Both the position numbers and the translations under genes were made by a program. Source: Candidatus Cloacimonadota bacterium (GTDB lineage: Bacteria; Cloacimonadota; Cloacimonadia; JGIOTU-2). From it: 39,358 bases of DNA. This document shows positions 32,375 through 38,631 of the stretch, piece by piece. The DNA lies in NCBI GenBank assembly GCA_030611765.1, contig JAUWPE010000009.1, forward strand, positions 1 to 39,358. The letters are read 5' to 3'. Each line of letters begins with the position of its first letter. The stretch's first letter is position 1. Under the pieces are notes generated by a model. It saw only the letters and a program-made list of their open reading frames with translations. It made no database searches and was not told the DNA's origin.

Positions 32375-32516
32375 GGTACAAATAATGATAAAGTGTAAAT
32401 TTTAGACTTATGATATTATTATGTTATTAGGAAAAGTTTTTATTATTATTTTAAACAACAATCGGAAATTTTGAAAAATTTGACAAAAGAAATTTAAAAT
32501 ATCTAAATATTTCAAT
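32375..32516. other. AT-rich intergenic stretch, possible promoter
   Basis: No ORF or recognisable RNA. TTGACA at 32480-32485 has CTAAAT or TAAATA at 17-18 nt spacing, a weak -10. It is the best promoter candidate for the downstream secreted-protein genes, but only tentative. Confidence 0.25.
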
Positions 32517-32704
32517 ATAAATTAGGGTTAAAACCAGCTATAAACTGAGGTAAAAATGGCACAAAAGGATTATGCAAATTTATTTACCCTGTGTAATAGC
32601 ATACAAACTTAAAATTTTATAAAGAAATATATTACGATATATTACACAGGGTAAATAGGAATTTTGGCGTTATGCCAAAAAATATTGTTAAGAATAAAAA
32701 GATA
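32517..32704 (+). repeat. Duplicated leader, copy 1
   Basis: Segment repeated at 33816-34014 with about a dozen substitutions, a 9-bp indel and a divergent tail. It holds an SD-preceded 18-codon ORF (32556-32612), an 18-bp perfect dyad TATTTACCCTGTGTAATA (32581-32598) / TATTACACAGGGTAAATA (32640-32657) with a 41-nt loop, and a second hairpin TTTTGGC-GTTAT-GCCAAAA (32662-32680). It ends about 30 nt before the start codon of the 32735 gene. It could be a structured 5' UTR, an operator or a small mobile repeat. Confidence 0.8.
32556..32612 (+). CDS. Putative short leader ORF, copy 1 (18 codons)
   Basis: ATG at 32556 with GAGG at 32547-32550, spacing 5 nt. It encodes MAQKDYANLFTLCNSIQT and then TAA. 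The copy-2 counterpart shares YANLFTLCNSIQT with three silent third-position changes. Beyond the TAA the frame continues with residues NFIKKYITIYYTG, also matched in copy 2, so the stop may be a later change. Function unknown: leader peptide, small protein or chance. Confidence 0.35.
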   Translation: MAQKDYANLFTLCNSIQT

Positions 32705-32734
32705 AAAAAAAATGACTAAAAAAAGGAGATAACC

Positions 32735-33757
32735 ATGAAAAAGATGAGATTAATGCTAACCATACTATCTCTGGTCCTGATTAGTATGCTTTACGCTGAT
32801 AAAGAGAAAGTTGATAACCCGGCAGACAGCATAGAGAACTACTGGCATTTTAAGGAAGAGGTAATTTATTTACCTGTCGGAAGTACTATTACGGAACTCA
32901 AAAAGGACGAGGGCAAAATCCCTGTAAAAGTATATCATTTAACAGAAGATCAGCTTAAAGGACCTGTTGCCGTGGATACGCCTCAACCACAAGGACCATC
33001 AGTATTTGCAGTTGATGAGGAAGGGAATATCTATATTAGAGTAGGTGGAGGAGTGAAAAAATACGATAGCAAAGGGAATTATCTCCGCACTTATAATTTC
33101 AAAGGCTGGTATACGACTGTGCATAATGATACCCTTGTGACTATAGTTCGTGATCCCCGAAATAATGTTGCTCTTTATCGTTACAGTTTAGACGGGGATG
33201 GTTATTTTATAGACAAATATTGGGTACCTGGTAAGAAATACAGCGGTGGTCAATATTATTCGCTTTGGTTTGCGACAGATTATGAAGATAATTTAGGATT
33301 CTTTTTTGGTGCAGAATTCAAAAAGATCATATTTGAAGATTCTACTTACCATTTAGAGAAGAGTGAGTTGAGTAATTATTTCAAGTTTAGTTATGGAGAT
33401 AAGATGGATGAGAAGCATCTGCTAATTAAAGAGAAAGGTGAATCTATTTGTTTAAATGAAATGTATCCAGAAGCACGCTCATTCCGATTTCTAAACGAGG
33501 ATAAATTTCATAGTCTGTACATTTATATGTATCCCAAAATCAAAGATGATCCAATCAAATTGGGAATAATAAGTAAAGATGGCAAAAGCATAGACAATAA
33601 TGTAGAGTTTCACAGAGGTGGCTTGGCTGTAGCAGGAAGTAATACCGCACCATATCTTGCAGACAAAAATGGCAAAATATATCAGATGTTGGTAAAAGAA
33701 GAAGTGGTTGAGATACACAAGTGGGTACGTGAAGAGACTAAGGGAGGTGAAAAATGA
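32735..33757 (+). CDS. Exported hypothetical protein, beta-propeller-like
   Basis: 340 aa with a Sec signal peptide (MKKMRLMLT, hydrophobic core, likely cleavage after Ala21). No family is recognised with certainty. Repeats of the type FAVDEEGNIYIRVGGGVKKYD and YDSKGNYLRTYNF resemble the blades of 6-bladed propellers (NHL/TolB-like). It starts behind AAGGAG and is preceded by leader copy 1. The Gly-rich C-terminus ends in an ATGA overlap with a 21-codon ORF. A paralogous role to the 34041 gene is likely from the shared leader and layout, although the proteins themselves are clearly divergent. Confidence 0.8.
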   Translation: MKKMRLMLTILSLVLISMLYADKEKVDNPADSIENYWHFKEEVIYLPVGSTITELKKDEGKIPVKVYHLTEDQLKGPVAVDTPQPQGPSVFAVDEEGNIYIRVGGGVKKYDSKGNYLRTYNFKGWYTTVHNDTLVTIVRDPRNNVALYRYSLDGDGYFIDKYWVPGKKYSGGQYYSLWFATDYEDNLGFFFGAEFKKIIFEDSTYHLEKSELSNYFKFSYGDKMDEKHLLIKEKGESICLNEMYPEARSFRFLNEDKFHSLYIYMYPKIKDDPIKLGIISKDGKSIDNNVEFHRGGLAVAGSNTAPYLADKNGKIYQMLVKEEVVEIHKWVREETKGGEK

Positions 33758-33819
33758 GAAAGCTTTCAAGAAACAATTTTACAAGAAGATTTTTAGAATA
33801 TCAAAATGGAATAAAATAA
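33754..33819 (+). CDS. 21-codon ORF, possibly the remnant of a downstream partner gene
   Basis: ATG overlaps the stop of the upstream gene (ATGA) and is preceded by a strong SD, AGGGAGG at 33741-33747. It encodes MRKLSRNNFTRRFLEYQNGIK and stops exactly where leader copy 2 begins. The junction parallels the one at 35318, where a full M23 gene starts MRNFL in an ATGA overlap. I infer a truncated partner gene; a genuine tiny ORF or chance cannot be excluded. Confidence 0.3.
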   Translation: MRKLSRNNFTRRFLEYQNGIK

Positions 33820-34014
33820 ATTAAGGTTAAATCCAGCTATAAATTGAGGTATAAATGGGACGAAAGGTTTATGCAAATTTATTCACCCTGTGTAATAGCA
33901 TCCAAACCCAAAATTTTATAAAGAAATATATTACGATATATTCGATATATTACACAGGGTAAATTAGGAATTTTTGCGTTATGCCAAAAAATAATGTTAA
34001 AATTAAAAGACAAA
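33816..34014 (+). repeat. Duplicated leader, copy 2
   Basis: Second copy of the 32517-32704 segment. The dyad is ATTCACCCTGTGTAATA (33881-33897) / TATTACACAGGGTAAAT (33948-33964) with one mismatch (C33884 against A33961). A 9-bp block CGATATATT is tandemly duplicated near 33934-33951. The small TTTTGGC hairpin has a G-to-T change here and is weakened. It precedes the 34041 gene. Confidence 0.8.
33855..33962 (+). CDS. Putative short leader ORF, copy 2 (35 codons)
   Basis: ATG at 33855 with GAGG at 33846-33849, spacing 5 nt as in copy 1. It encodes MGRKVYANLFTLCNSIQTQN, then FIKKYITIYSIYYTG. Compared with copy 1, the first six codons hold three replacement changes, the next twelve only silent ones; the copy-1 stop is CAA here and the 9-bp duplication adds three in-frame residues (SIY). 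Function unknown. Confidence 0.35.
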   Translation: MGRKVYANLFTLCNSIQTQNFIKKYITIYSIYYTG

Positions 34015-34040
34015 GAACAACAATACAAAAAGGAGTAATC

Positions 34041-35321
34041 ATGAAAAAGATTATTTTAATATCCTGTATAATTCTTCTAAGCAGTATAAGTTTGTTATTT
34101 GCATTAGAAGAATTTTCCACAGAGCCAATCAGTTTAGATGAATTCATTGAAGAATATCTTCCTGATTATACTCTACAAAAACGAATACCGTTGGAAGGAA
34201 TAGGACGAGCTTATGCAGTTGCAAAAGACAGTGGTGATATTGTTGCGATTACTGAAATAGGAGACCAATTTAAAGTACATTACTTTGATATTGAAGGAAA
34301 TTTGAAATGGACGAAAGATTTTGATAAAGTAGAATTGTATGGTTCTTTTCATAAAGTGAAATCTATGGACTGTGAAATATCAGACAATGGAGAGACAATT
34401 TGTCTATACATAGTTCCTCGTATGAAGTTTGCTAAACCTACCGGTTATTATGGAGTTAATAATACCATTTTGTCAAAAAAAGGTGATGTGCTTTTCACAA
34501 AAATATTCGAAGGCACCTGGTTGATACCATCTCCTGATGGAAAATATCTTTATAAGAGAACAGGTCAAGCAGCGGATTACTGGCAACCAGGTCTTGAACT
34601 TTACAGAAGTGACGGCACATTAGTTAATTTCAAAGGATTTGATTATACAAAAGATGATGTAAATGTAAGATTAAGATTTGTATTAGATGACCACATTCTT
34701 GCTTATATCGAAAGAAAAGAAGGGGATAACTATTCTGCCTATTTCAGATTTTTAAAGCTGGAAAATGAGACAGTTACAACGCTTTGGGAATATGAAATTG
34801 ATTTTGGCCAGGATCTAGCCTATAGATTTGACTCAAGGGTACAAGTTGAAAATAATAGAATTGCTTTATGCAGTGAGTTTTATCCTGCAAAATTCTATGT
34901 TTTTGATTTCGAGGGAAACCTTCTTTATTTTGAGGACAGTATTTATCAATCTTTTGATTTTGTGAATGAGAATGAATTATTCTTACAAAAACGAGATGCA
35001 AAAGGTGAATATTCCAAATTAATAAATCTTTCAACAAAAGAAAGTAGAAAGGAAAATATTACTTTTAGATATAGAAAAAATGACTATGATGACTTTAAAA
35101 ATGTATTAGTATTGAATAATCTACTTCTGTTTTCAATAAAGAGAAATCCTTATCAGAACCGAACTTTTTACACCATAATTCTTGATGCAGATAATTGGAA
35201 GCACATTAATAATCTTTCCCATAATGTTGCTTCTATTAATGTAAATAATGAAAAAATATTAGTTTTTAAGAGATACAATGAAAATCCGGAAATAGTAATT
35301 TTGAGAGGGGGTGGGAGATGA
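34041..35321 (+). CDS. Exported hypothetical protein, beta-propeller-like
   Basis: 426 aa with a signal peptide (MKKIILISC, cleavage probably after Ala21). The ATG at 34041 is chosen because AAGGAG lies at 34030-34035; the in-frame ATG at 33981 lies inside the leader hairpin. Short repeats such as VHYFDIEGNLKWTKDF and FYVFDFEGNLLYFED suggest PQQ/WD-like blades. No catalytic motif is seen. It overlaps the M23 gene by 4 nt (ATGA), so the two are translationally coupled, and a structural or binding role alongside the peptidases is plausible. Confidence 0.82.
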   Translation: MKKIILISCIILLSSISLLFALEEFSTEPISLDEFIEEYLPDYTLQKRIPLEGIGRAYAVAKDSGDIVAITEIGDQFKVHYFDIEGNLKWTKDFDKVELYGSFHKVKSMDCEISDNGETICLYIVPRMKFAKPTGYYGVNNTILSKKGDVLFTKIFEGTWLIPSPDGKYLYKRTGQAADYWQPGLELYRSDGTLVNFKGFDYTKDDVNVRLRFVLDDHILAYIERKEGDNYSAYFRFLKLENETVTTLWEYEIDFGQDLAYRFDSRVQVENNRIALCSEFYPAKFYVFDFEGNLLYFEDSIYQSFDFVNENELFLQKRDAKGEYSKLINLSTKESRKENITFRYRKNDYDDFKNVLVLNNLLLFSIKRNPYQNRTFYTIILDADNWKHINNLSHNVASINVNNEKILVFKRYNENPEIVILRGGGR

Positions 35322-36526
35322 GAAACTTTTTAATAAAAACAGCTAATATTCTTTTATTGCTTTTGGCTTTATTATTATTCTCACTTGAATGCTATGCCTG
35401 GACATGGCCATTATCTAACAGTAGTACTCAGGATGTATTTACTTCAGAATTTGGTCCCAATAATCTTGGTGGTGGAACTTTCTATCGTTTTCATAATGGA
35501 ATGGATCTTCAGGCAAGTGTTGGAGATACTGTCCATGCAACAAAGGCGGGTAATGTTCAGTATGCAGGTTATTATGATGACGAAGTTGGCAATATCGTTA
35601 CAATTTCTGATGGAATAGATAAAACTGCATATTTTCATTTAGATGACTGGTTAGTATCCCAAGGTAATTGGGTATATGAAGGCCAACCTATTGCACTTTC
35701 TGGGGAAACTGGTAATGTTGATGGTCCTCATCTACATTTTGAATACAGAAATCCTTCTACTAACCATCGTTTACATCCTCTTCAGGTTATGCCTTATGAT
35801 GATTATTACTTACTTGATTGTGATTTGGTAGAGAATTTAGATATTAATTTTACTATTCAATTAACAATTGCTACTGACGAATTAGATATTGATAGTTTAG
35901 ATTTTAATATCACCTATACAGATGGAGGTTCTTATTATGATGAGATCTTATCTGTTGATTATAGTGAAAAACAAAATATACCACTAATAAGTAATGATAA
36001 TGATATTATTGTCCTTGATAATCATTGGGTAATGACTGTAACTCCAGAATATTGGATTCCAGGTAGTGCTGATGATTATACGATTACCTTTAACTTTCAA
36101 CCCAATCAATCAGGTGTTAAAGCTTATACTGTAGAAGCTGATATTTATGCAGCAAATGGTTCGTGGGATGGAGGTTTGGATTTAGAAATGCTAATTCCAT
36201 CAAACTCAATTAATCCTGATTCACAGATAATGCTAGTGGACAAAATAATGAATAGTTATCCAAATCCATTTAATCCGGATAGAACAGGAACAAAAATCTC
36301 TTACAATCTTTCTCATAAAACCGAAAATCCAAAGATTGAAATATACAATATTCGTGGTCAAAAAGTAAAAACTCTGCAACTTAGCAATAAACCTGGCAAA
36401 GGAGAAGTAGTCTGGAATGGAACAAATATGCAGGGACAAAATTTAAGCCCCGGAATTTATCTTTACAAAATGATAAATAATGGTAAAAGTGTGGATACAA
36501 AAAAAATGCTATTACTTAGCAAATAA
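35318..36526 (+). CDS. Secreted M23 metallopeptidase with C-terminal sorting domain
   Basis: Predicted zinc endopeptidase of the LytM/lysostaphin family, 402 aa. Signal peptide with cleavage likely after Ala26. The catalytic domain is N-terminal (about residues 28-155): His58 and Asp62 in FHNGMDL, His106 in YFHL, and His137/His139 in GPHLHFE are all present, so it should be active, on peptidoglycan cross-links or glycine-rich peptides. Residues 160-310 look like a beta-sandwich with no clear match. Residues 314-402 (YPNPFNP ... NLSPGIYLYKM ... KKMLLLSK) are a type-A type IX secretion / FlgD-Ig-like tail. The next gene follows after 11 nt. Confidence 0.9.
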   Translation: MRNFLIKTANILLLLLALLLFSLECYAWTWPLSNSSTQDVFTSEFGPNNLGGGTFYRFHNGMDLQASVGDTVHATKAGNVQYAGYYDDEVGNIVTISDGIDKTAYFHLDDWLVSQGNWVYEGQPIALSGETGNVDGPHLHFEYRNPSTNHRLHPLQVMPYDDYYLLDCDLVENLDINFTIQLTIATDELDIDSLDFNITYTDGGSYYDEILSVDYSEKQNIPLISNDNDIIVLDNHWVMTVTPEYWIPGSADDYTITFNFQPNQSGVKAYTVEADIYAANGSWDGGLDLEMLIPSNSINPDSQIMLVDKIMNSYPNPFNPDRTGTKISYNLSHKTENPKIEIYNIRGQKVKTLQLSNKPGKGEVVWNGTNMQGQNLSPGIYLYKMINNGKSVDTKKMLLLSK

Positions 36527-36537
36527 TCGGAGGAAAT

Positions 36538-38631
36538 ATGCTAAATAACACAAGAAAATATAAAATATCGTTCATACTCATATTCATTCTGTTTATGAGT
36601 AGTATCTGCTTCGCAGAAACAGACTTAGAGAAAGCCACAAGAGATCAGTTAATGGAAATTATTAATGATGAACAAGTTGTTAATGATTTCATGAATGAAT
36701 TTTCAAAAGAAAATTTTAAAAGAATATCTCACAAACCCATCTCGAAAAATTTACGAGAAACCTCTGCAGTAGAGATGTATATAATCACTATTGATGAATA
36801 TGTAAATGCCTTTAATCAATTTGCAGAGCTAAAAAACAAAGAAGGTATAAATACAGAGGTAGTATCTACGACCGACATTGGAAATTCACCGGTATCAATT
36901 CGACTTTGGTTGAAAGAAATGAAACAGCAGAATGATTCATTGACGTATGTCCTTATCGGTGGAGATGAAACAGCCGTTCCTGTTAAAGATTTTAAATATT
37001 ATGACTGCGGTGTTGATTCTTGTAAAATTGCTACCACGGATTTTTATTATAGTAATGTTCTCTCTAAATGGCCCTTGGATGATAATATTTACTATATTGA
37101 TCCACATACGGATTTGTATGTTGGACGTGTTCCTGCGAGATGTGAAAAGGAAGTTGCAATGTTCACAGACAAATACATTTCATACAGATATAAATATACC
37201 CAATATACGGATGCAATGACATTTATCGCTACAAATATTCAAAAGATAAAAAATGCTACAGCAGATAACACCATGATCGATAATATTGCCTCGCATGTTC
37301 CTGACCATATCTCCAAAGATATGATCTACACTTATGACCTTATAGATACCGTGAATGGATGTGCACAACCGGTAGTTGACGAACTGAATAATAGAGATTT
37401 CAGTTTTCTTTATTTAGAATGCCATGGTGGTGATGCCTACTGCATTTATAATTCGGAATATGATGATGATTCGACTTGGGTTTGGAAGAGTTTTGGACCT
37501 AATAAACGAAATGATATTACAATAAACACAAGGCGTGTATCAGAAGGAGGAGGGTGGTATAATGATCTCACCGGAGATTCAACAGATTATTATTATGCAT
37601 CTCCTCCGGAGAAATATTGGCAATTAGAGGATAATGTGCCCAATACCCTAGGTCAAAATTATGTTACCTGGATTTCTTCTTGTTTTACTACGGATTTACT
37701 TCATTATCCAAGCCTATCCCAAGCAGTTCTTCGTGATACTTTGGGTGAAATTATTCAAACACATCATTATCCAGCGCAAGCCGGAGACGGTCCGATAAGA
37801 ATTCACGATTCCGAAATTCCGGAATGGGAAGAGAATCGTGTGCAGTGTATTTCCGAAGCCTTCTTTAATGAATTTGGCGGACCTGTTGCATTATATACCT
37901 CCTCCTGTCTTGATTATCCTTACTTGACTTATTTACTGGTTCAAGAATATTTCGATATGCTCTTTGAATATAATTTGCATACGCTTGGTTTGTTAACAAG
38001 AGATTGCTGGAAAATATGGTTTCAATACTTTCAAAATAATCGAGTGCTTAAGGAGATTTATGTTGGTTACACTTTATTTGGCGACCCAAGTATGGAGATA
38101 TGGTCCAAACAAGCAGAGAAACTGGTTACGATATGTAAGGGTGGCAATACTTTTAAAGCAATGGATTTCTCAGGAAATTCGGTTGCTGCCACCATTGTGG
38201 TTTTGGATGAAGACAAGAACATATTGGGAAGAGGAGAATCACCTTACACATATGCAGAAAGAATAAATGACGAATATATTATCACGTCCAATAGTCCTAA
38301 TTACCTGCAATCCTCTAATACGTTTTCCAAATTGAGAAGTATAACCCCAAAAACCGAATCAACAATTACAAATATAAAACTTCAAAATTTCCCCAATCCA
38401 TTTACTGCGGACACGGAGATAAGTTTTTCTCTGAAAGAACATTCGCATGTTAAAATAGTGATTTATAACGTAAAAGGTGAGCGTGTATCTACTCTTATGA
38501 ATGAAAATCGTGATTCAGGAATTCACACTATCGGGTGGGATGCCATGGATTTGAGCGCCGGTATTTACTTCATAAAATTGATGGTTAATGACAAAGTTTC
38601 CGATATTCACAAAACAATAATTCTGCGATAA
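36538..38631 (+). CDS. Secreted C25 family (gingipain-type) cysteine peptidase with sorting domain
   Basis: 697 aa. Signal peptide cleaved probably after Ala26, then a short pro-region. The caspase-like catalytic fold runs from YIITIDEY (81-88), GGDETAVP (141-148) and YVGRVPAR (194-201). The dyad is His296 in LECHGGD and Cys382 in ISSCFTTD, both intact. FGDPSMEIW (514-522) closes the domain, as in gingipains. An Ig-like stretch follows, and residues 618-697 (FPNPF ... LSAGIYFIKL ... KTIILR) form a type-A sorting tail. Export to the surface or medium by a type IX system is inferred. SD GGAGG. Ends before a terminator. Confidence 0.92.
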   Translation: MLNNTRKYKISFILIFILFMSSICFAETDLEKATRDQLMEIINDEQVVNDFMNEFSKENFKRISHKPISKNLRETSAVEMYIITIDEYVNAFNQFAELKNKEGINTEVVSTTDIGNSPVSIRLWLKEMKQQNDSLTYVLIGGDETAVPVKDFKYYDCGVDSCKIATTDFYYSNVLSKWPLDDNIYYIDPHTDLYVGRVPARCEKEVAMFTDKYISYRYKYTQYTDAMTFIATNIQKIKNATADNTMIDNIASHVPDHISKDMIYTYDLIDTVNGCAQPVVDELNNRDFSFLYLECHGGDAYCIYNSEYDDDSTWVWKSFGPNKRNDITINTRRVSEGGGWYNDLTGDSTDYYYASPPEKYWQLEDNVPNTLGQNYVTWISSCFTTDLLHYPSLSQAVLRDTLGEIIQTHHYPAQAGDGPIRIHDSEIPEWEENRVQCISEAFFNEFGGPVALYTSSCLDYPYLTYLLVQEYFDMLFEYNLHTLGLLTRDCWKIWFQYFQNNRVLKEIYVGYTLFGDPSMEIWSKQAEKLVTICKGGNTFKAMDFSGNSVAATIVVLDEDKNILGRGESPYTYAERINDEYIITSNSPNYLQSSNTFSKLRSITPKTESTITNIKLQNFPNPFTADTEISFSLKEHSHVKIVIYNVKGERVSTLMNENRDSGIHTIGWDAMDLSAGIYFIKLMVNDKVSDIHKTIILR

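Follow-up and report, generated by a model that had tools for sequence, protein, structure and literature searches.

Promoters and leaders are shared by recombination at expression loci, where cargo is swapped behind a common 5′ region. The locus described here resembles such systems in that one conserved 5′ region precedes unrelated exported-protein genes; it differs in that neither an inversion nor a recombinase nor a silent gene store was found and in that exchange is inferred between genera rather than within a population. For a palindromic repeat inside this 5′ region, the closest counterparts are MITEs and palindromic intergenic repeats such as BrickBuilt of Porphyromonas gingivalis, which is located between genes and has promoter activity (PMC4596501). 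The locus as a whole recalls gene clusters that encode type IX-secreted proteins together with gingipain-like (C25) peptidases; C25 peptidases have been reported in Cloacimonadota, those of Ca. Stygibacter carrying dockerin domains (PMC8542988). C25 and M23 peptidases with Por_Secre_tail are likewise encoded here, but the two genes directly behind the leaders are of unassigned family and have no recognised sorting tail. Almost nothing on the control of exported-peptidase loci in Cloacimonadota was found in the literature searched.

The stretch of Cloacimonadota DNA analysed (the window; 39,358 nucleotides, with all window features below on the forward strand) carries two copies of a leader, recognised from sequence, blastn, and alignment. 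Copy 1 (32474 to 32734; promoter-like region, 5′ UTR, and ribosome site) belongs to the gene at 32735 to 33757, and copy 2 (33772 to 34040) to the gene at 34041 to 35321. The initial annotation had reported a leader of about 190 bp at 32517 to 32704 and 33816 to 34014, matching base for base over most of its length. The duplication is real and lies near those positions, but it is longer and less exact: 32474 to 32754 and 33772 to 34060 are 82.9% identical over 292 columns (blastn, E of about 1e-78), the 188-bp segment noticed initially is 87% identical to the second copy (E of 9.5e-64), and the differences include one 9-nt and several 1-nt indels. The copies are direct repeats in the same orientation, adjacent in order with 1.3-kb spacing. 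The duplicated unit runs from an AT-rich promoter-like stretch with TTGACA (32480), through the ribosome site, to about 20 nt into the coding sequence, and the left edge of homology of copy 1 is identical in comparisons with copy 2 and with the leader of G012 (see below). As the 188-bp segment had no match beyond the second copy elsewhere in the 2.23-Mb genome, the copies number two in total. The assembly is a draft of 189 contigs; the presence of both copies in one 39-kb contig and the 13 to 17% difference between them argue against an assembly artefact. Among hexamers preceding the sampled genes of this genome, TTGACA showed the strongest enrichment (21 versus 3.4 expected), which makes a promoter at the leader plausible, with the candidate -35 element placed by consensus at 32480 to 32485. 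The leader of G008 has TTGAAA instead, with different downstream spacing. The hexamer enrichment and the other genome-wide statistics rest on a sample of about 730 kb of the genome.

The first leader gene encodes an exported protein of 340 aa with a signal peptide, and the second an exported protein of 426 aa; a profile search and a relatives search for the former and a relatives search for the latter left their families unassigned, and neither protein had a Pfam match above the cut-off. No relative of the 340-aa protein was found in 16 other genomes of the family, and the 426-aa protein had one 31% relative, in G010, a genome without the leader. Both had been described as propeller-like and as strongly diverged from each other. 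They are in fact further apart than that, with no detectable similarity (BLASTP E of 0.13), and the propeller assignment was not confirmed: only the first protein gave a match to Hyd_WA ("Propeller"), below threshold, and the structure models (pLDDT of 38 and 50) were too poor for use. A type IX sorting tail was absent from both window genes and from the G008 leader gene and present on the G012 leader gene. At 33754 to 33820, the stop codon of the first gene overlaps an ATG (ATGA) that opens a short frame, MRKLSRNNFTRRFLEYQNGIK, into leader 2, and the second gene ends with a similar overlap, ATGAGAAA, onto the M23 gene. These two overlaps hint that leader 2 and its gene were inserted at that junction.

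Homologous leaders precede unrelated signal-peptide genes of one locus in three genera. G008 and G012, which represent two other genera of the same family, each contain one such leader directly before a signal-peptide gene. Signal-peptide-like N-termini were present in all four downstream proteins, no homology was found among those tested, and a C25-peptidase gene that carries a type IX sorting tail lies downstream of each leader. Alignment of the four leaders (two window copies, G008, and G012) delineated a block A, a palindrome confined to the window copies, and a block B. Block A (87 nt in copy 1, at 32496 to 32582; placed by alignment at 33795 to 33881 in copy 2) is 83% identical between the window copies, 60 to 61% identical between copy 1 and G008 or G012, and 60 to 68% identical between genera. 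Block B (47 nt, 32656 to 32702) is 94% identical between copy 1 and G008 and 96% identical between copy 1 and G012, and 94 to 96% identical among the three, whereas the rpoB identity of the genera compared is 67 to 71%. In copy 2 (33965 to 34010), the identity of block B is 83 to 87%. When the block B pattern was searched in 125 genomes of the class, three genomes matched, with one additional three-mismatch match in G073. A covariance model recovered the same four leaders; its other matches were weak (E of 0.002 to 1), and those inspected were coding DNA or other palindromes, i.e., noise. Exact pattern scans of genome and viral collections and a blastn search of plasmids gave no matches. Thus, leaders were found only before exported-protein genes, as the initial annotation had anticipated for a regulatory element, but the confident ones amount to four copies, two of them sisters, in three genomes, which is not a wide distribution before functionally related genes.

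The two window copies share a palindromic insertion that is missing in the other genera. It spans 73 nt with perfect arms in leader 1 (32583 to 32655; folding, pattern scan, and alignment) and 82 nt, with an extra 9 nt inside, in leader 2 (33882 to 33963; sequence and alignment), and consists of TTTACCCTGTGTAATA...TATTACACAGGGTAAA with long inverted arms. The arm pattern TTWACCCYGTKNRA occurred at four further sites in the window's own genome (G000) and at sites in G004, G005, G007, and G009, mostly intergenic and without fixed relation to gene starts; a reversed-pattern control gave zero matches. The inner palindrome belongs to a family of palindromic repeats dispersed between genes. The G008 and G012 leaders align with the window copies on both of its flanks and have no palindrome, i.e., they represent the empty site. 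Given the dispersed family and the presence of the palindrome in both window copies and its absence from G008 and G012, the best reading is that it inserted before the leader was copied. The TA found on both sides of the palindrome in copy 1 is too short to judge in AT-rich DNA. Like BrickBuilt, the palindrome is intergenic and dispersed, and it shares inverted arms with variable middles with MITEs and palindromic intergenic repeats in general; unlike BrickBuilt, the leader is not dispersed as a whole and has no minisatellite. An integron attC site was considered for GCGTTATGCC and rejected on inspection, the matching 5′ half (GGCATAAC) being missing. Palindromic repeats of 96 to 97 nt, AACCTTGCGAAYGGTT...AACCATTCGCAAGGTT, at L078:7663-7762, L067, and L068 were found repeatedly close to sorting-tail genes of G000 and G006.

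The locus lies next to the end of a ribosomal-protein operon (rpoA and rplQ), its upstream neighbour. Behind the two leader genes, the same cluster encodes an M23 peptidase with a type IX sorting tail (35318 to 36526; profile search) and a mosaic Peptidase C25 with a type IX sorting tail (36538 to 38631), the body of which is nearest to G009 and the sorting tail of which is nearest to the window's own genus. Among named relatives, those nearest to the C25 gene come mostly from Candidatus Cloacimonadota, NIOZ-UU1 included. Gene X, leader, secreted genes, and C25 follow one another in the same order in G008 and G012, and the window matches these two genomes in the C25 and sorting-tail parts. The C25 gene is 81% identical between the window and G009 over 2.0 kb, a 240-bp coding segment of the locus is 86 to 89% identical between genera, and gene X is 85% identical between G008 and G012 over 1.2 kb. 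These identities exceed that of rpoB and indicate exchange between genera; the cluster appears to have been exchanged and reshuffled between related genera. Gene X, the upstream neighbour of the leader in both other genera, seems, tentatively, to have been deleted in the window save for its first codons. A putative remnant of its 5′ end (32421 to 32453; codons MLLGKVFIIIL), short and AT-rich, was recognised by blastn and alignment and matches the gene X start of G008 (86% over 36 nt) and of G012 (79% over 58 nt). Truncated genes or gene ends with fragments of the same sorting-tail sequence were observed at L076 4577-4673 (G009) and L049 8272-8868 (G008), and these fragments suggest that recombination may occur at the tails.

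A structured RNA spanning the leader, or a riboswitch-like element, is not supported. The leaders searched came near no gathering score in Rfam, in agreement with the initial statement that no known riboswitch or leader family was matched, and the covarying stems envisaged for a regulatory leader largely failed to appear. RNAalifold, applied to the leader without the palindrome, gave one 7-bp hairpin, TTTTGGY-N5-RCCAAAA, in block B (TTTTGGCGTTATGCCAAAA; TTTTGGC-GTTAT-GCCAAAA at 32662 to 32680 by folding and alignment). Its top pair covaries stepwise (C-G, U-G, and U-A) with pairing kept, and one pair is broken in copy 2 (G to T). Block A contained no helix common to the leaders with useful variation; a CCCGTTARAG hairpin considered there was good in G012 only. 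Judging by the predicted structures, the inserted palindrome is largely responsible for the folding z-scores of -3.5 and -2.8 obtained for the full leaders. A small ORF as the 5′ element was rejected: the block B ATG of copies 1 and 2 and G008 is ATA in G012 and is followed there by a +1 insertion, so that the start is lost and the frame is shifted. An Acido-Lenti-1 RNA was matched by Rfam above the gathering score elsewhere in G008 (L049:11706-11752+).

In a cross-genus mosaic, raised leader identity is expected from exchange alone, and exchange accounts for much of the leader conservation. The initial annotation had reasoned from noncoding conservation beyond that of the proteins to either a repeat insertion or a functional 5′ element. 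As evidence, this conservation is weak, because coding segments of the mosaic lie above the genome background and because a similar second copy turned up, within about a third of the genome, for 12 of 67 other upstream regions sampled here. Duplication of upstream sequence is not unusual in this genome. Both halves of the proposal nevertheless have a counterpart, the palindrome being a dispersed repeat and the rest a 5′ expression leader before exported-protein genes. Block B is the sole part whose conservation exchange does not readily explain: exchange alone fails to predict 94 to 96% beside 60 to 68% for block A in all three pairs, so that constraint or separate recombination of block B is needed. 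We favour, as the probable explanation, that the leader supplies promoter, 5′ UTR, and ribosome site to an exported-protein locus that is mosaic, has been exchanged horizontally, and runs into the C25 peptidase, and that this leader was copied in place after a repeat insertion. The palindromic repeat would have inserted into the leader first; the leader would then have been copied within the locus, and a second, unrelated exported-protein gene would have gained the same expression signals through leader-anchored recombination or cargo swapping, with the leader as the source of promoter and ribosome site. Constraint may be limited to block B, which would serve as an mRNA hairpin or a DNA operator immediately ahead of the ribosome site. 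What looks like a special, conserved noncoding leader in an uncultured phylum can thus be assembled from ordinary parts, i.e., an exchanged expression region and a dispersed repeat.

A simple tandem duplication of leader and gene together, after which both proteins diverged rapidly, fits the adjacency, shared order and orientation, and 1.3-kb spacing of the copies, but it is very improbable, given that the leaders remain 83% identical before proteins of different lengths (340 versus 426 aa) and without detectable similarity. That the whole 190- to 270-bp unit is a MITE-like mobile element inserting upstream of genes is improbable as well. Such an element would explain the perfect-armed palindrome of a dispersed family within the unit, its occurrence before unrelated genes, and the similar upstream region without a leader in G009; on the other hand, the genome contains just two such units and the class four, their edges showed neither terminal inverted repeats nor target duplications, and the kind of locus and the orientation are always the same. 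The many scattered copies by which an ordinary interspersed repeat was to be recognised were not seen, only the inner palindrome being dispersed.

Selection may have shaped block B, alone or together with block A, as a cis-regulatory element, i.e., a structured mRNA leader or palindromic operator coordinating exported-protein genes of this locus across genera, although on balance we doubt it. The identity of block B in three genera (relative to block A and rpoB), the two changes at the top hairpin pair that keep pairing, and the signal-peptide-like N-termini of all four downstream genes argue for it. A motif compatible with the block B hairpin, TTTTGG-N3-TAT-R-CC, was counted 9 times in 732 kb of this genome, with 5 occurrences within 60 nt upstream of TTGACA (chance of about 0.016 each), and most control patterns had few matches. 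Against this stand the small number of copies, the broken pair in copy 2, and the lack of an Rfam match and of a usefully varying common stem in block A. Moreover, because several of the motifs are ends of other dispersed repeats, the link between motif and block B may be accidental and is a lead only. A wider but unlikely proposal gives block B the role of a control element shared across genera, as an operator or mRNA hairpin of the TTTTGG-N7-CCAAAA type. It would mark a slot in which exported proteins of Cloacimonadota are expressed and can be exchanged, new cargo being swapped behind a constant regulated 5′ end. If block B is regulatory, it would offer a handle on how Cloacimonadota control exported-peptidase loci.

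The motif (TTTTGG-N3-TATRCC) was located 18 to 20 nt upstream of TTGACA at L139:5100+, L157:2788+, L169:148-, and L151:12261+ in G000. At three of these four sites, the same near-identical dispersed repeat ends with CTTAAAGTGTCATGAATATGAAAAA just before the motif. A second dispersed repeat, with the same core and a different left part, ends with GAATCTTCATCGAATTTTTGGKGGTATCCCTG at L139:4753-, L153:4027-, L162:310+, and L151:12452-.
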